From Balneolaceae bacterium (GTDB lineage: Bacteria; Bacteroidota; Rhodothermia; Balneolales; Balneolaceae): a DNA stretch of 64,000 nt. Within the stretch, counting starts at the first letter, position 1. Each line of letters starts with the position of its first letter. The notes under the pieces are model-generated. The model saw only the letters and a list, made by a program, of their open reading frames with translations. It was not told the DNA's origin and made no database searches. This document shows, piece after piece, positions 7,770 to 63,871 of this stretch. The position numbers were made by a program, and so were the translations under genes. The stretch is from assembly GCA_034521495.1 (NCBI GenBank), contig JAXHMK010000004.1, forward strand, positions 310,001 through 374,000, read 5' to 3'.

Positions 7770-9260
7770 ATGATCGAACAAACATTATATAGCATTAGCC
7801 AGTTTTACCCGGAGATCATCATCATCCTGACGCTCTGTGTGATTATTATTGCCGATCTCATTATCAAAAATAACAAAAACACTACCGGCTGGATTTTGCT
7901 GGGTGGATTCGTCTTGTCAGGAATAGCCATTCTGTTGCAAACAGGACAAAATGGGTCCATGTTTTACGACATGGTTGTTGTTGATCCATTTTCTGTTTTT
8001 TTCAAATTACTGCTCATCCTTGCTGGAATTTTTATAGTTCTCTTTTCACTGAAGAACCGGGAGCTCGACGAATACTCTTCAAGAAAAGGTGAATACTACA
8101 TGCTGCTGTCCGGTATGATGCTCGGCATGTTCATGATGGTAAGTTCAACCAACTTGCTGATGATTTACATTGCCTTTGAAATAACCAGTATCAGCTCTTA
8201 TGTGCTGGTTGGATTTACCAAAAAAGCAACTTCATCAGCTGAAGCCTCCACCAAATATATCATTTATGGGGCGGTTTCTTCCGGTGTGATGTTATATGGC
8301 ATCTCAGTTTTAATTGGATTTACAGGTGCTGCAGATCTTGTTGCAATTAACGAAGCGCTGCTGAGTCGAACTGATGTTCCCTTTATTGTGAATATATCCA
8401 TCCTGATGATTTTAGTAGGTATGGGCTTCAAAATTGCAGTGGTACCTTTTCACTTCTGGGCGCCTGATGTTTATGAAGGAGCACCTATTACCATTGCTGC
8501 AATACTTGCAGTAGCATCTAAAACCGCTGCGTTCGGTTTGTTGATCCGGTTTTTCTCCGTCTCCTTTATCGATTCAGAAGGAGTATTGGAAACAGGAATT
8601 TGGCAAACTATTGAGGGAGTTCAGTGGACGACTCTTTTGGGAGGAATGGCGGCATTGGCGATGATAGTTGGAAATCTTACTGCACTCCGGCAAGATAACA
8701 TTAAACGGATGCTTGCTTACTCAAGTATAGCTCATGCCGGATACCTTTTAATGGGGGTTGTTATTTTAGCCCAGGAAGGCTTGACTTCAATCATGTTTTA
8801 CCTTGTCATATATCTGTTTATGAACCTGGGGGCTTTTTATGTAGCTATGCTCTTTTCAAATTCTATTCAAACTGAATCTATTGAAAAATATAAAGGTCTT
8901 GGATTCAGAGCTCCTCTTGAAAGTATAGCTTTAACAATTTTTTTAATCTCTCTGACAGGACTGCCCCCTACCGGAGGATTCGTAGCGAAACTTTTTATTT
9001 TCAGTGCCGCGATCAGCGGTGGCTGGATCTGGTTGGTAACAATTGCAGGTATCACTACTGTGATCTCTCTTTTCTATTATATCCGGGTAGTAAGAAACAT
9101 GTTTTTCTACAAGCCGGAATCTGATGCAGGTATCATTAATTTCGATCTGTCATCTAAAACCATTTTACTAATTCTATTGATTCCGGTACTGGTGTTTGGA
9201 GTTTACTTTTCTCCAATCCTTGAGTTTGCCAAAAATTCTGTCCAAATATTTGGAATGTAA
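7770..9260 (+). CDS. nuoN: NADH-quinone oxidoreductase subunit N (NuoN)
   Basis: Antiporter-like proton pump nearest the quinone module and the last complex I gene here. It is 496 aa. Family blocks are IAFEITSISSYVLVGF, FKIAVVPFHFWAPDVYEGAP with ITIAAILAVASKTAAFG, and LAYSSIAHAGYLLMG. I placed the start at the ATG at 7770, preceded by a GAGAG purine run. An in-frame TTG three codons upstream (7761) is possible but less likely. Transcription may continue into the HEPN-like gene 58 bases downstream. Confidence 0.95.
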   Translation: MIEQTLYSISQFYPEIIIILTLCVIIIADLIIKNNKNTTGWILLGGFVLSGIAILLQTGQNGSMFYDMVVVDPFSVFFKLLLILAGIFIVLFSLKNRELDEYSSRKGEYYMLLSGMMLGMFMMVSSTNLLMIYIAFEITSISSYVLVGFTKKATSSAEASTKYIIYGAVSSGVMLYGISVLIGFTGAADLVAINEALLSRTDVPFIVNISILMILVGMGFKIAVVPFHFWAPDVYEGAPITIAAILAVASKTAAFGLLIRFFSVSFIDSEGVLETGIWQTIEGVQWTTLLGGMAALAMIVGNLTALRQDNIKRMLAYSSIAHAGYLLMGVVILAQEGLTSIMFYLVIYLFMNLGAFYVAMLFSNSIQTESIEKYKGLGFRAPLESIALTIFLISLTGLPPTGGFVAKLFIFSAAISGGWIWLVTIAGITTVISLFYYIRVVRNMFFYKPESDAGIINFDLSSKTILLILLIPVLVFGVYFSPILEFAKNSVQIFGM

Positions 9261-9318
9261 ATACTAACAAATTACACCTTTTGATGATATAAAATCATAA
9301 CCTTTAACCCTTCGAATT

Positions 9319-9744
9319 ATGGATAATCAAATTATACATGAACTGTTTCAAAAAGCTGAAAAAGATCTTGCCGCAGCCAGGGAAGAGCTCTACCAACCGG
9401 CTGAAGATGTAGTAACGTATTCAGTATGCGTATCCTCAAGAAGGGCTTTATACAATTTTTTGAAGTGCCTGTATATTCTCTATGCCAATGAGAATGATGA
9501 CCCTGTTAAAGAACACCAGACGATTGAAGAACTAATTACATACTGCAGCAAGTTTAACGAGCAATTAAAAGATATAGATTTTTCTGACCTCAATTGTAAA
9601 TGCCAGGAAGATATTCACGAAAATAAAAAAGAGGCCTACTATTGCAATAATGTATCTAAAGTAAGCTATTGCAAAAAACTTGCAGAAGAGGTACGCACAT
9701 TAGTTATAGAAAAAGGTGGTAAAAACATTCTGGAGGAAGTTTAA
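9319..9744 (+). CDS. Cysteine-rich HEPN-domain-like protein
   Basis: A 141 aa soluble helical protein. The layout fits the HEPN family: an AEKDLAAAREEL first helix, a long second helix with the conserved basic/small pattern (SSRRALYNFLKCLYILY), then EHQTIEELITYC matching the family's His-containing loop and helix. The canonical RNase motif RX4-6H is not obvious, so a catalytic role is doubtful. It has seven cysteines (37, 50, 76, 93, 95, 109, 118), four of them within 26 residues, unusual for HEPN and suggestive of metal or redox binding. It sits between nuoN and an Rrf2 regulator. HEPN identity is from pattern only; the function is unknown. Confidence 0.6.
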   Translation: MDNQIIHELFQKAEKDLAAAREELYQPAEDVVTYSVCVSSRRALYNFLKCLYILYANENDDPVKEHQTIEELITYCSKFNEQLKDIDFSDLNCKCQEDIHENKKEAYYCNNVSKVSYCKKLAEEVRTLVIEKGGKNILEEV

Positions 9745-9864
9745 CGAATATCACAAAGGAATTATTCGCAGCAGCTAAGGAATTGTTTATATTTAGGCGC
9801 TTTATACCTTTTTATCCAATTATTAAAATTTCTCTAAACTTCGTAACTCAATTATAGCACCATA

Positions 9865-10440
9865 ATGTTTTCAACCTCATGCCATTACGGTCTCCAGGCA
9901 ATGATATTTATTGCTCTGCACGCTTCAGAAAATGAAAATGTAGGGCTCACTACAATTGCCAAAGAGCAAGATATACCCAAACATTTTCTCAGCAAAATCC
10001 TTCAAATGCTGGTGAAGCATAAATTGCTTGTATCTATGAAAGGGCCTACGGGCGGATTCAATTTAAATCGTCCGGCTGATGAAATAACACTCATCGAAGT
10101 TATTGAAGCGATCGATGGATTGGACATGTTTAATAAATGCGGAATAGGATTCAAACGATGTAATGATGAACATCCATGCCCTATTCATCACGATTACAAA
10201 AAGGTCAGAAATCGCATCCAGGAGCTTTTTGAAACCAAAACACTCAATGAGCTGGTAAAAGATGTGGAGAGAGGGGATAGTATAGTAAGCCTGGGTAAAC
10301 CTCAGGATAGTTTAGAAGGCTTTGAAAACGTGTATCGTCAATCTGAACTGATTCAGATTCTCCATTGTCTTTATAGCCAGATGGAGATCCTGAATCAAGT
10401 TCAGGATGACGTAAGTTTTGCAAAGCCTTCTTATATTTGA
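9865..10440 (+). CDS. Rrf2-family transcriptional regulator A, with repeat-derived C-terminus
   Basis: A winged-helix regulator of the Rrf2 (IscR/NsrR/RsrR-like) family. The N-terminus MFSTSCHYGLQAM and the wing segment KGPTGGFNLNRPADEITL are typical. Cys92, Cys99 and Cys105 in the KCGIGFKRC..PCPIH segment match the family's iron-sulfur ligand region, so cluster sensing is likely. It is 63-65% similar by eye to the second copy at 11108, which is only 145 aa. The extra C-terminus from about residue 151 is the translation of a dispersed palindromic repeat (10315-10432), so the native protein probably ended near residue 145-150. It lies upstream of a ferredoxin gene. Confidence 0.88.
   Translation: MFSTSCHYGLQAMIFIALHASENENVGLTTIAKEQDIPKHFLSKILQMLVKHKLLVSMKGPTGGFNLNRPADEITLIEVIEAIDGLDMFNKCGIGFKRCNDEHPCPIHHDYKKVRNRIQELFETKTLNELVKDVERGDSIVSLGKPQDSLEGFENVYRQSELIQILHCLYSQMEILNQVQDDVSFAKPSYI
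10315..10432 (+). repeat. Palindromic dispersed element, family 1, copy 1 (inside rrf2 gene)
   Basis: A 118-base copy of an element that occurs three more times here (21342, 49784, 62794). The ends are inverted repeats: GAAGGCTTTG(C)AAAAC at the left and GTTTTGCAAAGCCTTC at the right. The interior holds two smaller palindromes, around CTGAACTGATTCAG and ATCCTGAATCAAGTTCAGGAT (shown in part: CCTGAATCAAGTTCAGG). This copy is shorter than the others by several small deletions, and its reading frame stays open through the whole element. Confidence 0.9.
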
Positions 10441-10553
10441 TTATGGTTATGGTTTAAAAAAAGACTGACCTATAACCAGGATTTTTTCAATAACTGAACA
10501 AAAGAAGTCATCTTTAGACTGTGAATAAATAAGCTTTTTATTACTTTAAATTG

Positions 10554-10574
10554 GAGTTTTTTATCTAAATATCT
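10554..10574 (+). promoter_or_regulatory. Shared element upstream of ferredoxin A
   Basis: A 21-base block whose core is TTTTTTRTCTAAATATCT, found 45 bases before the ferredoxin ATG at 10620. The same block with one mismatch lies 59 bases before the second ferredoxin gene (16369-16389). The surrounding DNA is not conserved, so the block is likely a promoter or operator core. An Rrf2 target or a promoter are both possible; which protein binds is not known. Confidence 0.55.
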
Positions 10575-10619
10575 TATATATAAAGTGTGATATAACCATT
10601 TAACCAGTGGTAAGCTATT

Positions 10620-10991
10620 ATGGCCTTATTGATCAACGACAGATGCATTAATTGTGGATACTGTGAAAAAGAGTGTCCAAACCAAGCCATTTATGAACCT
10701 GGAATGGAGTGGACATTATCAGAAGGTACAACATTGAAGGGGCGTTTCACTCTGTTTAACGGCAGGAACGCAGATGTAAATGATGAACACGAACCTCTGT
10801 CGGAAACCTATTATTTCATTGTTCCTGAAAAATGCGCAGAGTGTAAGAATATTTATTCAGAACCTCAGTGTATGGTTGTCTGTCCTAATCCTGAAAGCAT
10901 TGTTGTGCATCCCGGCTATAAAGAGACAGAAGCAGAATTGACCGAAAAACAGGCATTACTTAATCAACAAACCTTTACCACAAAAACTTAA
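10620..10991 (+). CDS. 2[4Fe-4S] ferredoxin A (Alvin/YfhL type)
   Basis: A 123 aa low-potential electron carrier. The first cluster motif is Cys9, 12, 15, 19 (CINCGYCEKEC) and the second is Cys72, 75, 84, 88 with CX2CX8CX3C spacing; the 8-residue insertion in the second motif is the hallmark of Allochromatium-type ferredoxins. A roughly 50-residue linker containing YEPGMEWTLSEGT separates the motifs and is longer than in the classic proteins. It is a paralogue of the ferredoxin at 16449 with identical cysteine positions. It lies between two Rrf2 regulators and upstream of PFOR, the likely electron donor. Confidence 0.92.
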   Translation: MALLINDRCINCGYCEKECPNQAIYEPGMEWTLSEGTTLKGRFTLFNGRNADVNDEHEPLSETYYFIVPEKCAECKNIYSEPQCMVVCPNPESIVVHPGYKETEAELTEKQALLNQQTFTTKT

Positions 10992-11107
10992 TACCAGAGG
11001 GAATTCAGTTCATACATATACCTGTGAAATTATTACCAGGAAATGATAGAACGACCTCTTTTTACAAATACTGACGAGAGACTGATACACATTTAAATTC
11101 GGCAATT

Positions 11108-11545
11108 ATGTTTTCAGCATCATGCCATTATGGATTACAGGCAATGTTTTACATCGCATCTCACTCTACAGAAGAAATCAATGTAGACTTGAATACAATT
11201 GCGCATGAACAAGACATTCCAAAACATTTTTTAAGTAAAATTTTACAATTGTTAGTCAAAAACAAACTTCTCATTTCAATGAAAGGACCCAATGGAGGAT
11301 TTCGTTTAAGCCGTCCTGCTGATTCAATAACACTCATTGAAATAGTAGAAGCCATCGATGGACTGGACATCTTTAAACAATGTGGAATTGGCTTTCGGGA
11401 GTGTGATGAAAGCGATCCATGCCCTATCCATACTGACTATAAAAAAATTAGAGATCATGTAAGATATCTGTTTGAGCAAAAAACATTGAATGCCCTTACA
11501 AAAGACGAACTGGGAGGAGATTTTCTTACAAACATTGCCACATAG
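11108..11545 (+). CDS. Rrf2-family transcriptional regulator B
   Basis: A 145 aa winged-helix regulator, paralogue of the one at 9865. It keeps the N-terminal MFSASCHYGLQAM, the helix-turn-helix region IAHEQDIPKHFLSKILQLLV, the wing KGPNGGFRLSRPADSITL, and the three cysteines at 92, 99 and 105 (QCGIGFREC..PCPIH), so it probably binds an iron-sulfur cluster and senses redox, NO or cluster status. It ends normally with no added tail. It is 73 bases upstream of nifJ in the same direction, which suggests control of PFOR and ferredoxin genes; this is inference from position. Confidence 0.92.
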   Translation: MFSASCHYGLQAMFYIASHSTEEINVDLNTIAHEQDIPKHFLSKILQLLVKNKLLISMKGPNGGFRLSRPADSITLIEIVEAIDGLDIFKQCGIGFRECDESDPCPIHTDYKKIRDHVRYLFEQKTLNALTKDELGGDFLTNIAT

Positions 11546-11617
11546 TACAAACAGGATCTAATGAATTTTAATTAATCGAACTTTATTGATTTAACTTTTT
11601 TCGGAGGAAATAATCTC

Positions 11618-14600
11618 ATGTCAAAACATATGGTAACCATTGACGCAAATGAAGCTGCGGCGTATGTCGCTCATAAACTAAGTGAAGTAATCGCCATCTA
11701 CCCGATCACCCCGGCCTCTCCGATGGGAGAATGGTCAGATGAATGGTCCATGGCCGGGAAAAAAAATATCTGGGGCACAGTACCTGATGTGATTGAACTA
11801 CAAAGTGAAGGCGGTGCGGCAGGAACCCTGCACGGCGCTCTTCAAACGGGTGCTATGGCCTCTACATTTACGGCTTCTCAGGGTTTACTGCTCATGATGC
11901 CCAATCTCTATAAAATTGCCGGAGAATTGACGCCTGCTGTAGTACATGTAGCTGCACGAACCGTTGCTACTCATGCACTTTCCATCTTCGGAGACCACAG
12001 TGATGCCATGGCTGTACGTCCAACGGGCATGGCAATGTTAAGTTCTAACAGTGTGCAGGAAGCGATGGACATGGCCTTAATTGCACACGCAGCTACTCTT
12101 GAATCAAGAATTCCTTTCCTCCACTTTTTTGATGGATTCAGAACCTCACATGAAGTTCAAAAAATTCAGCAGATCGATCCTGAAATCATGAATCAGATGA
12201 TCGATGAGAACTGGGTTATTGCTCATAGAAAGCGGGCATTAACACCGGATAAACCTGTACTTCGGGGTACGGCACAAAACCCGGACGTATTCTTCCAGGC
12301 CCGGGAAACGGTGAATTCATATTATAATGCCTGTCCCGATATCGTTCAAAAAACAATGGACACGTTTGCTGAACTGGGCGGACGTTCTTATAAACTATTC
12401 CAATATCATGGCCCGGAAGATGCTGATCGTGTAATTATCCTCATGGGTTCTGGTGCTGAAACGGCTCATGAAACTGTTGAAAGACTCAATGCACAAGGCG
12501 AAAAAGTGGGTCTTATTAAAGTACGTCTTTTCAGGCCGTTCAGCATGTCTCACTTAATAGAGTCGCTTCCGGAAACTGTAAAAGGTATTGCCGTTCTTGA
12601 CCGTACAAAAGAACCGGGTAGTGCAGGAGAACCTCTTTATAATGATGTTCTGGCTGCGATGCATGAAAATCGTTCAGAAAAATGGAAAGATTTTACCCAT
12701 GATGTAAAAGTGATTAACGGCCGATATGGACTCTCCTCTAAAGAGTTTACCCCTCCTATGATTAAAACTATTTTTGATGAACTTGAGGAAGAGAAACCAA
12801 AAAATCACTTCACAATTGGCATTCATGATGATCTGACCAATACAAGCCTTGAATACAGCGATGAGGCCTGGGAAACTGAAGAAGGTGTATTTGAAGGATT
12901 ATTCTACGGACTGGGAGCTGACGGCACGGTAAGTGCCAACAAGAACTCCATAAAAATTATTGGTAACAATACCGACAACTATGCGCAGGGTTATTTCGTG
13001 TATGACTCGAAAAAATCAGGTGCAACAACGGTATCTCACCTGCGATTCGGTCCCAACCCGATCCGGTCAGCCTATTTGATTGACAAGGCTAAATTTGTGG
13101 CTTGTCACCAGTTCCAGTTTCTAAGCAAGCTGGATATGCTGCAACATGCCAAAAAAGGAGCAACATTCCTCTTGAATGCTCCCTATGATAAAGATGAAGT
13201 TTGGGACAACATCCCGGATAAGGTTCAAAAACAGATCATCGATAAGGAGCTGAAATTCTACAGCATTGATGCTTATAAGGTGGCCAAAGATACGGGAATG
13301 GGTACTCGCATCAATACAGTAATGCAAACCTGTTTCTTTGCCATTTCAGGCATTCTTCCAACTGATAAAGCAATTTTGCTGATTAAGGATGCCATCAAGA
13401 AAGCGTATGGTAACAAAGGCGAGAAGATTTTGAAAAGCAACTATGCTGCTGTAGACAACTCTCTTGAGAACCTTTTTGAAATTGAAGTACCCGATAAGGC
13501 AACTTCAGATGTTGAAATGAAACCACCTGTTCCTGAAGAAGCTCCTGAGTATGTACAAAAAGTGATTGCTGAAATTATTGCCGGAAATGGCGATGATCTT
13601 CCCGCAAGTGCTTTTGAACCGGATGGAACCTTCCCAACAGGAACCACAAAATGGGAAAAACGAAATATTGCCATGGAGATTCCTGTACTGGAACCGGATA
13701 TCTGTATTCAATGTGGTAAGTGTACGCTGGTTTGTCCCCATGCTGTAATCCGGATGAAGGCGTTTGACGGAGAACTTCTTGAAGCCTCTCCCGAAACCTT
13801 TAAGTATATGGATGCACGTGGCCGTGAATGGCCGGATAATACCAAGATCAGTATCCAGGTTTCACCGGAAGACTGTACAGGTTGTGAGCTTTGTGTGGAA
13901 GTTTGTCCGGCAAAAGACAGGAAAAAAGTCAGCCGTAAAGCTCTTAACATGGCGCCGATTGACCCACTTATCGAACAGGAAAAAGAGAACTGGGATTTCT
14001 TCCTTACACTACCTGAATACGATCGTTCTGAACTGAAAACAGAAACGGTTAAAGGGGCCCAGTTCCTGGAACCACTCTTTGAATTTTCAGGTGCCTGTGC
14101 CGGTTGTGGTGAAACTCCATACATCAAACTAATTACACAACTGTATGGCGATCGAATGGTAATTGCAAATGCCACAGGTTGTTCTTCCATCTATGGCGGC
14201 AACCTGCCATCTACGCCATATACCACAAACAGTGATGGGTACGGACCTGCCTGGTCGAACTCCCTGTTTGAAGATAATGCCGAGTTTGGCCTTGGTTTCC
14301 GACTCACAATTGACAAACAACAGGAACAAGCCCGTAATTTATTGAAAAATATGAACGGGGCGATTGATTCAGAGTTGAAAGAAGCTATTCTGAATGAGGA
14401 TCAATCTACTGAACCGGGAATCTATGAGCAGCGCGAACGTGTGAAAAAGCTCAAAAAGATCCTCGAAGATTCCGATGTAGAGAATGGCAAGATGCTTCAC
14501 AGCCTGGCTGATTACCTTGTGCGTAAAAGCGTCTGGATCTTTGGCGGTGACGGATGGGCCTATGATATCGGATACGGCGGCCTTGATCATGTACTGGCAA

Positions 14601-21341: not shown

Positions 21342-21472
21342 GAAGGTTTTGCAAAATTATGACCGTCATCCTGAACTTGATTCAGGATCTCCTGATACTG
21401 GCTATAAAGACGAATGGAGAATCTGAATCGAGTTCAGATTGACGCATACCCACGGTTTTGCAAAGCCTTCTC
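21342..21472 (-). repeat. Palindromic dispersed element, family 1, copy 2
   Basis: A 131-base copy in the opposite orientation to the other three. Its complement reads GAAGGCTTTGCAAAACC and continues almost base for base with the copy at 49784, including the central CTTTATAGCC and the two internal palindromes. Confidence 0.9.
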
Positions 21473-24096: not shown

Positions 24097-25014
24097 TTAA
24101 TCCCGGATGCCAAAGTATTTCTTAACCTGCTCATAATTGTTGAGATCGATTGGCAGGCTTTTAGCTTTGGCATTTAAACTCTTGCCCCCGGGGATAAGTA
24201 CATAACGAAAATCTATTTTCGTACTAAGCACCATTGGAAGAGTCGTAGAATTGTCTGGATCCAAATAGCCAATCGTCAATTGCTGAGGTTTTAACTCAAA
24301 AAAGAAACTATATTTGGGGTTAGCCGGGGTATCTCCCTTACCTATGGGAAGTGAATAAATAGACTGTGTATTTAAATTTGTATAAACCTTAACAACACCA
24401 CTATCTAATATTTCTTGTGTCATTGCGTTTGCTGAAATATCAAAATAACGATATTTGGTTGCATTAAATGTCCCCTCTTCCCATTGCTGTGGATTTACCC
24501 AATCTGAATACATTACATTGGCTGTCCCTTTCAGATTGATAGGCGTACCCCAACCACTGTCGGTTTTTGGGCCATAAAGATCGAATGTTGACGTGTTCAA
24601 AAAATAGTCGCCGGGTTGTCCCATTCCTGCATCAGGGGCTGAGGTTCCCGAATGTATTTGACTGCCGTCTTCGCCATCTTCACCGTCTGCCCCGGGAGGT
24701 CCCTGTAAACTAAGCGGTGTACCCCAACCCGACTCATTTTTCGGTCCGTAAAGTTCAGCATTATCACGGTCCAGATAATAGTCACCAACAGATCCAGTGT
24801 CAGAAGAGGGTGCGCCGGTTCCAGCCAATATCATACTGCCATCTTCACCGGCGGGTCCTACAGGTCCCTCAGGACCTTGTTCACCAGCCGGACCTTCAGG
24901 GCCTTCGGGTCCTTCACAGGCCATAAAAATTCCTAACCCCAAAACCAGTGATAAACATAGAGTCATGAGTCTTTTTAAATAAATGATTGAGCTTTTTTCT
25001 AAGTAGTTATTCAT
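24097..25014 (-). CDS. Collagen-like repeat lipoprotein
   Basis: A 305 aa probable surface lipoprotein. The N-terminal hydrophobic segment (LCLSLVLGLGIFMAC) ends in a lipobox with the lipidated cysteine at about residue 33. A Gly-X-Y collagen-like tract follows (GPEGPEGPAGEQGPEGPVGP). Then two tandem units of about 58 residues each contain GxYYLDRDNAELYGPK/ FDLYGPK, SGWGTPL or SGWGTPI, and a short further Gly-X-Y tract (GPPGADGEDGEDG). The last 130 residues are globular and unknown. Such units are common in outer-surface and appendage-like proteins. An inner Met (24966) would shorten the N-terminus and still keep the lipobox. Confidence 0.85.
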   Translation of the reverse strand: MNNYLEKSSIIYLKRLMTLCLSLVLGLGIFMACEGPEGPEGPAGEQGPEGPVGPAGEDGSMILAGTGAPSSDTGSVGDYYLDRDNAELYGPKNESGWGTPLSLQGPPGADGEDGEDGSQIHSGTSAPDAGMGQPGDYFLNTSTFDLYGPKTDSGWGTPINLKGTANVMYSDWVNPQQWEEGTFNATKYRYFDISANAMTQEILDSGVVKVYTNLNTQSIYSLPIGKGDTPANPKYSFFFELKPQQLTIGYLDPDNSTTLPMVLSTKIDFRYVLIPGGKSLNAKAKSLPIDLNNYEQVKKYFGIRD

Positions 25015-29427: not shown

Positions 29428-31873
29428 TTAGGTTATTTGATATTCTAAGTTCCTGGTCGATCTTTTTTCTGCATCCGTTACTTTATGAATCACATCGATC
29501 ACACTATCCGGCACCACTGAAATGGAGTCGATACCACATTCTACAAGAAAAGCGGCGTATTCAGGATTATCACTGGGTGCCTGGCCGCAAAATCCTACAC
29601 TCGTTTCTTCCTCATGCGCCCGCTCAATCACTTCGCGAATAGCTGTTTTTACAGCCTCGTCATTTTCACTGAACAGGTGGGCCATCTCTCTTGAATCTCT
29701 GTCTACTCCAAGGATGAGTTGTGTCAGATCATTGGAGCCAATAGAAAATCCATCAAACATTTGTGCAAATTTTCCTGCTAAAATATAGTTCGACGGAATT
29801 TCACACATCATATATATTTGAAGGCCTTTTTCTCCCCGATTGAGTCCATTATCAGCCATTACGGAAAGCACTCGCTCTGCTTCATCCAGCGTACGGCAAA
29901 ATGGAATCATAACGATCACATTGTCCAGACCAATCTCTTCTCTCACTTTTTTCAGAGCCCGGCATTCCAGCTTCAAACCCTTCACGATATCCTTCACTGT
30001 AGTACCTTGAAGCACCTCTCCAGCCAAGCATTGGATTTTCTTCATGAGGTTCAAAATGCCGACCACCAATCAAACCTGCATATTCATTGGTTTTAAAATC
30101 ACTGGTGCGAACAATCACCGGATTTGGATATTGAGAGGCCGCTATTTTAGAAATTCCGCTTGCCAGGCGATCTACAAAATAGAGCTTCATATCACTGTAG
30201 CCGGACGTGAGTTTTCTGATTTTTCTGAATTCGTCTTCATTGTCAATTTTCTCGGGATGAACCAGGGCCATCGGGTGGATTTTTATATGATTGCTGATAA
30301 TAAACTCCATCCGCGCAAGCCCGATCCCTTTTACGGGAAGTTTCCACCATTTAAATGCCGATTCGGGTGTGGCAAGATTCAACATTATCCGGGTATGTGG
30401 CTCCGGAAGGTCAGACAGATCTGTTTCATGAACATCAAATTCAAGCAAGCCGTTATACACATAACCGGCATCTCCTTCGGCACTGGATAGCGTAACCTCC
30501 ATTCCGTTTTCAATAACCTGTGTGGCATCTCCGGTTCCAACAACTGCAGGAATTCCCAATTCTCTGCTAACAATAGCGGCATGGCAGGTTCGACCGCCAA
30601 AATCGGTTACAATTCCAGAGGCCCGCCTCATCGCCGGAACCCAGTCCGGTTCAGTCATTTCTGTAACCAGAATTGTATTCTCATCAATATCTTTTAAATC
30701 GGTGGCATCCCGAATCAATTTAGCTTTCCCGTTTGCAATACTGCTGCCTATGCTTACCCCGGTTACAAGTGTTTCATGTTTTCCGGGTTTCAAATTGTAA
30801 GATTTGAAATAACCGTTTTCTGCCACTGAGTGAATGGTTTCGGGGCGAGCCTGAAGGATATAGAGCTTCCCGGTTTCATCTTCTTTCACCCATTCAATAT
30901 CCATCGCTTTTTGATAGTGGTTTTCGATAGCTACACCCCATCGGGCCAGTGTCAGAATCTCTTCGTCATCCAATACAAATTTATCTCTTTCTGCAATATC
31001 TGTGGGAACAGTTATTGTGTTTCCATTTTTATCTGTGGCGTAGATCATTTTTACCTCTTTTGAACCGAGGGTTTTTTCAATGATTGGCTTATAGTCTGTA
31101 TTGCTCAGATGTGGTTTAAACAGATAGTACTGATCCGGATTTACCGTTCCTTTTACAACCGTTTCGCCCAGTCCCCAGGCTCCTGTAATTACAATGGCAT
31201 TTGGAAATCCTGTTTCCGTATCTACGGTAAACATTACGCCGGAAGAGCTTTTATCTGCCCGAACCATCTTTTGAACGCCCACCGAAAGAGCTACTTTCAG
31301 GTGATCGAATCCCATCTTTTCCCGATAGATAATAGCTCGATTTGTGAAAAGTGATGCATAGCAGCTCTTACAGGCACTCAACAGACTTTCGGATCCATTT
31401 ATATTCAGATACGTTTCCTGCTGACCTGCAAAACTCGCATTGGGCAGATCTTCGGCTGTTGCACTGCTTCTCACGGCTACATCAACAGTAGCATTTCCGG
31501 AGTGTTTCGAAGATTTTTCCTGGTATTTTTTACATAATATTTTGTAGGCATTATGAATTCCCTCTGCCAAGGGGGTTGGAAACGTACTTTTAAGAAATAA
31601 TTGCCGGATTTTTCGTCCCGCCTCATCCAACTCCACCTCTCCATTTTGATATGCTTTTAAAATATCCTGAACGGGGGGCTCAAGATTATTGGAATGAATA
31701 AAATCCCAGTAAGCTTCGGAGGTTGTTGCAAATCCGTCCGGCACAGAAATTTGTTCTTTTTTAAGGTGACGTATCATCTCCCCAAGCGAAGCATTCTTCC
31801 CGCCAACAACCGGCAGATCCTGTATGTCCATTTCAGAAAACCAAATGATGTAGGGTTTAGATAGCTTATTCAT
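29428..31873 (-). pseudogene. ppsA: Phosphoenolpyruvate synthase, interrupted by a one-base insertion
   Basis: Converts pyruvate and ATP to phosphoenolpyruvate, AMP and phosphate. The gene reads in two frames. Frame one covers the ATP-binding domain (FSEMDIQDLPVVGGKNASLG at the start) and the swivelling phosphohistidine domain with GGRTCHAAIVSRELG (His431). Frame two resumes at KLECRALKKVREEIG and covers the PEP/pyruvate domain, with CEIPSNYILA, GFSIGSNDLTQLILG and the active Cys762 in VGFCGQAPSD. One extra G (C on the plus strand) at about 29974 separates GYREGF from KLECRA; removing it gives an 814-aa protein of normal length with all motifs. A single indel in an otherwise perfect gene may be an assembly error. 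Confidence 0.85.
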
Positions 31874-49400: not shown

Positions 49401-50208
49401 TTACTACTGGTTAACATCCATAATGGAATTGTTTTTCATGATTGTTACAAATTTAAACATTGGAGGAATTTATATCATTTTTATACCTCTTGATTTACAT
49501 TTAATAACTTTTTTAGGCTTGTTTGAGTTATAACAAGGTAGGCTTCAATTCTGCTGTAAAATTGAATGAATTCTGAAGGAAATTTGATTTTTACTATTTT
49601 TTACAGCGCATCTTCTTAGATATCGATTCATTTTTTAAGCAAGCTTTCCAACTATTACACCAACTAAACCAAAGCTTTCGAATTTCCTCTATTTCTGAAA
49701 GCGAAAATCCTCAACAAAAAATGAGAAATACGATACAATCTGAATTGCTTTGTTCATCCCCCTCTTTTTTTTTACATCTAAAGGAAGACTTTGCAAAACC
49801 GTGGGAATACGTCAATCTGAACTCGATTCAGATTCTCCATTCGTCTTTATAGCCAGTATGTGGAGATCCTGAATCAAGTTCAGGATGACGGTCATAGTTT
49901 TGCAAAGTCTTCTAAAGTTGACAAAGCTCTTCATACAGAACAACTTTACTTCTTGGCTACAGTTAAGTTCACTTTATTCGTATTGACTAAAGAACTATGA
50001 GTTGATGGATCTCAAAAAAGGCAACGTGTTTTTTTCAAATTGAATTTTTTTAGAAGATTATCGCTTTTTGATCATCATATTGACGACAAAAATCCTGTTT
50101 AATGAAGTTTAAAAAATGATTTATAATATCCAGTTAACTTTTTGGTTTTAAGAAGTTACATTAAACCGGTTTATCCCATTATCACTCTTTTACCATAACA
50201 TAGATTCA
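49401..50208. other. Divergent intergenic region carrying a family 1 element
   Basis: About 800 bases between the DUF5916 gene and the cytochrome lipoprotein gene. It contains the family 1 element at 49784-49912; the rest is AT-rich and presumably holds two promoters. No gene seen. Confidence 0.6.
49784..49912 (+). repeat. Palindromic dispersed element, family 1, copy 3
   Basis: A 129-base copy with terminal inverted repeats GAAGACTTTGCAAAAC and GTTTTGCAAAGTCTTC. The paired change of G to A in the left arm and C to T in the right arm keeps the ends complementary, which points to selection on base pairing or to correction between the arms. The interior matches copies 2 and 4 almost fully. Confidence 0.9.
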
Positions 50209-61197: not shown

Positions 61198-61404
61198 TTA
61201 TTCGGCAAGTTTATCCAGTGATTTTCGGTGTTTTTTACTGATCTGCTGATAAGCGGACTTGGCATCCACTTTTTTAATTAACAATCCCTCCTCGTGCGGA
61301 ACAATCTCAACTTTATCATCCTCCTCAACCTTCAGGAGTTTCAACAGGGCTTTTTCGAGGAGAATGCCTCGGCTGTTTCCAATTTTTTGAAGTTTTTTAA
61401 TCAT
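61198..61404 (-). CDS. AbrB/MazE-type (SpoVT-AbrB) antitoxin-like protein
   Basis: A 68 aa swapped-hairpin DNA-binding protein: MIKKLQKIGNSRGILLEKAL, LLKVEEDDKVEIVPHEEGLL and a short C-terminus (SAYQQISKKHRKSLDKLAE) that in antitoxins contacts the toxin. No toxin gene follows on the minus strand, so it is an orphan or acts as a regulator. Upstream is a pair of direct repeats (61421-61440) that are also present before the decayed second copy at 63323, consistent with autoregulation. Confidence 0.82.
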   Translation of the reverse strand: MIKKLQKIGNSRGILLEKALLKLLKVEEDDKVEIVPHEEGLLIKKVDAKSAYQQISKKHRKSLDKLAE

Positions 61405-61420
61405 GATAATGTGTGGGTTT

Positions 61421-61440
61421 GTTCTTACATAGTTCTTACA
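61421..61440 (-). promoter_or_regulatory. Direct-repeat operator upstream of antitoxin
   Basis: On the minus strand TGTAAGAAC occurs twice with an 11-base period (about one helical turn), 17 bases upstream of the antitoxin ATG. The same pair and spacing occur at 63543-63562 before the decayed copy. Likely the binding site of the antitoxin. Confidence 0.55.
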
Positions 61441-61521
61441 ATGATTATACGAAAAGATTTGGTGAAAAGTATAGGGGAGCTTTTACACAGTGATAAAGAC
61501 TTTGATCGGATGGCTGCCCCC

Positions 61522-62719: not shown

Positions 62720-63043
62720 GGTATTCTCTTTTGATTTAAAAAAATTCAACTTTAGGCTACCTGACAGACCGTAATACTTATTATATCCTTTCAGAGGGCT
62801 TTGCAAAACCGTGGTTACTGGTCAATCTGAACTCGATTCAGATTCTCCATTCGTCTTTATAGCCTGTATCTGGAGATCCTGAATCAAGTTCAGGATGACG
62901 GTCATAGTTTTGCAAAGCCTTCTTTCAGATTTCAGGCCATAAAACAGATCTATCGATAAGTCTCTCCTTGTAATGTAAGGACATGAATTACTTTTTGCAT
63001 TTTTTTTACTCAGGTATCCGGTACTATAGCGGTTATACCTCCA
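62720..63043. other. Upstream region with family 1 element
   Basis: About 320 bases with the family 1 element at 62794-62923 and an AT-rich tail. Nothing else is recognisable. Confidence 0.5.
62794..62923 (+). repeat. Palindromic dispersed element, family 1, copy 4
   Basis: A 130-base copy, ends GAGGGCTTTGCAAAAC and GTTTTGCAAAGCCTTCT. The interior has the same two palindromes and CTTTATAGCC centre. It lies 75 bases upstream of the aldo/keto reductase start. Confidence 0.9.
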
Positions 63044-63322: not shown

Positions 63323-63527
63323 CTAAACCAAGAAGAAGGTAAAATCAAGCCAACTCAAATTCATCGGCTGGTAAGCGGATTCAGCATCAACTTTCTTAAT
63401 TAACAATCCCTCCTCGTGTGGAACAATCTCAACTTTATCATCCTCCTAAACCTTCAGGAGTTTAAGCAGAGCTTTTTCGAGGAGGATTCCCCGGCTGTTT
63501 CCAATTTTTTGAAGTTTTTTAATCATG
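63323..63527 (-). pseudogene. Decayed duplicate of the AbrB/MazE-like antitoxin
   Basis: The same reading as the gene at 61198 (IKKLQKIGNSRGILLEKALL, EDDKVEIVPHEEGLLIKKVD) but with a TAG stop replacing the Glu codon after LLKV. The C-terminus is different from residue 55 on. Upstream the direct repeats and the ATGATTATACGAAAAG stretch are conserved with the first copy, so about 270 bases were duplicated. Confidence 0.8.
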
Positions 63528-63871
63528 GTTATCGATTAGGTTGTTCTTACACAGTTCTTACAATGATTATACGAAAAGATTTGGTGAAAAATATAGGGGG
63601 TATTTTACAAAGACAACTGGTGTATCGAAAATGAAGTAAAGTTTCTACATAATGACAAAGATTTAACCGGATGGCTGAGGAGTTGCCTTTGCGGGATTAT
63701 GGGGAAAATCTATAACACGCAATTTAAATTACAATTACAGTGGCGATATAATCCTGTATTTATGATTTGTATATCTTGAGCTACCTCTTGATTTTGATGG
63801 CCTGGTATAAAAACTCCCTCTTAGTGCCTAATTTTTACAGTCTGTTTAATCCGTATTTCTACTCTTATATT
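63528..63871. other. Intergenic region after the duplicated segment
   Basis: About 340 bases. The first part (63543-63690) repeats the upstream region of the first antitoxin with a 46-base insertion. The rest is AT-rich and unremarkable. Confidence 0.4.

Follow-up and report, generated by a model that had tools for sequence, protein, structure and literature searches.

Most probably, the C-terminal tail predicted for one Rrf2 regulator of a Balneolota bacterium is incidental; it may also reflect an error in the sequence, and a function for it is unlikely. We give a probability of about 0.72 to the reading that an ordinary MITE, or CGTC-REP-like dimer, lies near the stop of the rrf2 gene and that the tail is not a coding element that has been kept. 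The window (the whole 64,000-nucleotide stretch analysed) lies on contig C4 of a Rhodohalobacter-like genome (4.57 Mb, 22 contigs), the nearest relative found being Rhodohalobacter sulfatireducens (orthologue ~85% identical).

A predicted element-coded tail in one Rrf2 regulator

The gene rrf2-1 (9865-10440, plus strand) was assigned by PF02082 (E 5.6e-31) and by orthologue alignment, and its product has 191 residues as deposited, of which approximately residues 1-148 form the conserved part in this alignment. Residues 151-189 are the conceptual translation of a palindromic element copy at 10315-10431, and the final codons (TAT ATT TGA, with the TGA at 10438-10440) belong to the flank outside the element; QSELIQILHCLYSQMEILNQVQDDVSFAK is an example of a peptide from residues 151-191 of the predicted product. 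A sequence-only reading had taken the last ~40 residues as the translation of the element, which is borne out within one residue, and it had correctly described the paralogue at 11108 as ending without the tail (rrf2-2, 11108-11545, plus strand, from its ORF and Pfam Rrf2 match; 145 residues). The products of both genes match the Pfam Rrf2 family and have three conserved cysteines in common (C92, C99, and C105 of Rrf2 are invariant in an alignment of 22 sequences). A ferredoxin-like gene (10620-10991, plus strand; Fer4 family matches) is located between them, and the three-gene block is bordered by putative nuoN-like and pyruvate:ferredoxin-oxidoreductase-like genes (names from ORFs). The window copy of this ferredoxin gene is intact, whereas its R. 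sulfatireducens counterpart (L001:3640-3808), likewise located between two rrf2 genes, has been shortened, with the loss of most of its cysteines. AlphaFold models (22 sequences) gave pLDDT >80 across nearly the whole Rrf2 domain and ~37-46 at residues 141-191, where a helix was drawn without confidence at 160-184.

The alignment of orthologues, a check proposed together with the sequence-only reading, agreed with that reading: all 31 orthologues fetched from genome contigs lack the tail and end, like the adjacent paralogue, at 145-156 residues, so that the tail is private to the window sequence. It was also absent from all matches in 58 relatives. One candidate continuation of the tail, in the orthologue of genome G023, was rejected because the match crosses three stops. 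A single scan of genome contigs returned no second strain of the host species.

The element is a MITE carrying a REP-like dimer

The element is a 129-nt palindrome with ~99 copies of 116-158 nt in the host genome (profile scan). It has the characteristics of a MITE: its ends are 16-bp terminal inverted repeats (GARGGCTTTGCAAAAC / GTTTTGCAAAGCCYTC), its many copies have no transposase gene of their own, and, among the 96 copies with both ends recognised, the 5-bp target duplication is perfect in 69 and matches at 4 of 5 positions in 12 more. In a search for an autonomous partner with the same ends, the right-end pattern occurred, among the matches listed, only within element copies; the draft may lack IS copies. 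The interior consists of two head-to-head palindromes, with CGTC-AT-CCTGAA...TTCAGG-AT-CTCC in both arms. The CGTC foot, the AT-based stem, the short loop, the CC-containing tail and the head-to-head dimer all correspond to the textual description of CGTC-REP dimers (PMC3733652), and these dimers are likewise often found near gene 3' ends; the dimer studied here differs in sitting within the 16-bp terminal inverted repeats and a clear 5-bp target duplication. The combination of inverted-repeat ends, target duplications and a CGTC-REP-like interior identifies the element as a MITE carrying a CGTC-REP-like dimer. Rfam gave no credible match at window positions 9000-12000.

Three intact copies in the window were aligned with the rrf2-1 copy (21342-21470, minus strand; 49784-49912, plus strand, target duplication TAAAG; 62795-62923, plus strand, target duplication TTTCA), and none of the three forward frames of the intact element is free of stops. 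Approximately 29 copies of the genome (L226-L254) are 145-158 nt long or truncated. In the longer variants, the right inner palindrome has one of two inserts, CCCCGGAGGGATCCCGATGGGAAA or CCTGCCTGCGCTAAGCTTCGGCAGACAGG, in its loop, which looks like other repeats nested in the element. In a genome of the same genus (G009), the 28-nt core palindrome is clustered on contigs C90, C33, C23, C48 and C11, with several per kb. The window also contains a 250-nt direct repeat (61241-61490 and 63363-63612, 88% identical) near its end, and short direct repeats (24673-24704 and 24838-24869) whose sequence resembles a region coding for a collagen-type Gly-x-y stretch.

Deletions and insertion edges of the rrf2-1 copy

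The only differences between the copy coding for residues 151-189 (10315-10431, plus strand) and subfamily B (~15 element copies sharing the GTATGC allele) are 11 deletion events, which together remove 13 nt; the copy has neither substitutions nor insertions of its own. The sequence-only reading had spoken of "several small deletions" that leave the frame open; the frame is indeed open as deposited, but the number of deletions was understated. Only 10 indel events were counted among 69 other aligned copies (mean 0.15 each), which makes the rrf2-1 copy a gross outlier (Poisson P ~1e-17), and plain neutral decay fails to explain 11 deletions with zero substitutions. The only other deletion-riddled copy found, L230 (C8:70238-70350), has 6 deletion events and 3 substitutions and is located in non-coding DNA, in a conserved region upstream of nth. 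L230 was rejected as a second coding insertion because of this flank and of the stops that a relative has in the same frame; its flank was also considered as a repeat family, with no match. A separate subfamily sharing the deletions of the rrf2-1 copy was sought, and none was present among the ~99 copies of the host or in relatives.

The right target duplication is TTATA (10431-10435, plus strand), and the left flank TTTA (10311-10314, plus strand; 3/5 match) is probably the same duplication minus one base, which suggests that one further base was lost. Upstream of it lies an out-of-frame TAG, in the region GGATAG (10304-10308, plus strand), which, from the comparison with the R. sulfatireducens stop, might have served as the rrf2 stop before the loss of a single base (gene 3' end GGA AAA TCG AAG AAA TAA in R. 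sulfatireducens vs GGT AAA CCT CAG GA-TAG TTTA in the window). The bases at this edge would fit the opening of an original TAG of rrf2-1 by a single lost base, and would equally fit an empty site CAG GAT AGT TAT ATT TGA into which the element was inserted three codons before the present TGA; none of the relatives has an immediate flank similar enough to choose between these two.

The deletions left the hairpin of the rrf2-1 copy nearly unchanged (45 pairs, -58.0 kcal/mol, after the loss of 13 nt vs 45 pairs, -61.1 kcal/mol, in the parent). Random deletion sets had a mean MFE of -38.5 and reached -58 in 0.2% of cases; pair count alone is a weaker measure, 45 pairs being reached in 7% of the random sets (P = 0.07). 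The deleted bases tend to be those unpaired in the parent (P 0.03 to 0.0001, depending on the placement of ambiguous gaps), and L230, with a well-kept hairpin, leans the same way (P = 0.04). All of these tests were designed after the sequences had been seen. Copying of one arm by template switch was rejected because the new sequences do not match the opposite arm. The preservation of the hairpin could reflect structure-guided mutation, selection on the hairpin, or a consensus artefact linked to the hairpin.

The open frame as evidence of coding

When the 11 deletion events were placed at random, 16% of the trials kept a frame without stops across the element; the open frame therefore gives no evidence of coding selection, and frame-restoring selection was rejected. 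An intact element at the same place would still yield a short tail. Among the surveyed full-length copies, an ORF runs right through in only two, both of them deletion-riddled (the rrf2-1 copy and L230; L256, in the same survey list, is a core-only repeat of a different kind), and, as the ORF of L230 lies in non-coding DNA, the riddling with deletions is not tied to coding.

Reliability of the deposited bases

A comparison between 214 kb of the window's contig and 200 kb from R. sulfatireducens yielded 9 frameshift candidates in the former, over ~90 kb of conserved coding sequence, vs 1 in the reciprocal comparison. At least six of these amount to one base gained or lost in a well-conserved gene. 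One such gene, PEP-synthase-like, is split near 29977 into two minus-strand ORFs (29428-30069 and 29882-31873) because it has one G more than the R. sulfatireducens sequence, which is either an assembly error or a pseudogene. Further single-base frameshifts in conserved genes are found at ~45744 and ~50644 of the window and at 379186, 407069, 409300 and 410831 of contig C4, three of those on the contig falling within 4 kb in apparent arabinose-use genes. Part of the candidates may be real pseudogenes. Given this excess, the deposited sequence cannot carry an argument from the frame alone, and frameshifts in conserved neighbours make indel error a live alternative. The indels outside the rrf2-1 copy are, however, scattered and mostly insertions, unlike those within it, so that a simple error rate is also an incomplete explanation.

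Origin of the tail

We suggest that a non-autonomous mobile palindrome entered the gene on the rrf2 stop or no more than a few codons from it, that the element copy and its edge lost ~13-15 bases in the deposited sequence, and that the rrf2 frame now happens to cross the element for 39 codons. The predicted tail, if translated, would probably be disordered and tolerated, the Rrf2 regulator being normal in other respects, and we infer that it is nearly neutral. Three observations stand against an incidental tail: plain neutral decay fails to explain eleven deletions without a substitution, the TGA directly beyond the element is regained exactly in frame, and the hairpin survives the deletions better than expected by chance.

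In one form of the incidental tail, which we consider a serious candidate at somewhat under even odds, the true copy is an ordinary, intact one located directly downstream of the rrf2 stop, and the frame-opening deletions, including one before the out-of-frame TAG, are uncorrected bases of the assembly; being a sub-case, it shares its probability with the preferred reading. The frameshift candidates in conserved genes and the abnormal spectrum of eleven deletions without a substitution point to such an error, but ~97 other element copies are clean, the rrf2 gene itself is intact, and the rrf2-1 copy has deletions only, which respect the hairpin. That respect for the hairpin would be accounted for if the bases are real and palindrome-linked mutation, or selection on an RNA hairpin, removed mostly unpaired bases from two copies, the coding tail being a by-product. 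Mutation by template switch at quasipalindromes is already known (PMC7202029, PMC3820800), and the retained pairs, the MFE and the lean of L230 agree with this; yet the altered sequences do not reproduce the opposite arm, the pair-count test is weak alone and the tests are post hoc, and we regard it as rather unlikely. Doubtful to a greater degree is the more specific proposal that two MITE copies had a hairpin-preserving burst of small deletions (11 and ~6 events, accompanied by few substitutions or none) and that the burst in rrf2 gave a translated in-frame C-terminus; no description of such bursts in bacterial MITEs was found in the literature. It is very improbable that the tail was domesticated, i.e., selected as a new Rrf2 C-terminus. 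The frame is open through the element and returns to the TGA in a gene whose orthologues are tailless, as domestication would have it, but such a frame is expected 16% of the time, the eleven deletions were unneeded because the intact element already gives a short tail, the fold of the tail has low confidence, and no second coding case occurs among the surveyed copies.

The sequence-only reading is thus literally true of the deposited sequence in so far as an element has been added to the coding end of the gene: the element is there, the frame runs on through it and the orthologues have no tail. Its absorption, in the sense of retention as coding sequence, is unsupported, given the chance frame, the non-coding L230, the low-confidence fold and the frameshift-prone assembly, and the interpretation as a coding-absorbed element is weakly supported.

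Comparison with known systems

The nearest precedent, by analogy, is QMITE2 of Coxiella burnetii: one strain has an EnhC that the element lengthens by 33 residues, whereas in another strain an indel places a stop immediately ahead of the element (PMC5896051). In both systems, a MITE at the 3' end of a gene adds a C-terminal tail and entry of the frame into the element hinges on an indel just before it; the element and the phylum are different, and two strains were compared there vs one sequence here. The sequence-only reading had drawn a parallel to the RPEs of Rickettsia in a different group. What holds of it is a palindrome (100-150 nt in RPEs; PMC10969869, PMC2229807, PMC3767692) inside a reading frame and a core that resembles the CGTC-REPs. 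RPEs, however, are recurrent in many genes and their element frames are open (PMC10969869, PMC2229807), whereas there is a single coding case here among ~99 copies and the intact element is closed in every forward frame. The point of a different group is also weak, because the CGTC-tagged REPs, a superfamily that includes RPE-4 and RPE-6 of Rickettsia, have already been reported in Bacteroidetes (PMC3733652).

If the deposited bases are wrong, the rrf2-1 copy is a caution on reading protein tails from indel-prone drafts. If they are real, it would add a case from outside the Proteobacteria to the conserved proteins that a mobile palindrome has made longer, and its odd deletion spectrum would make it possible to test whether mutation at palindromes is guided by structure.
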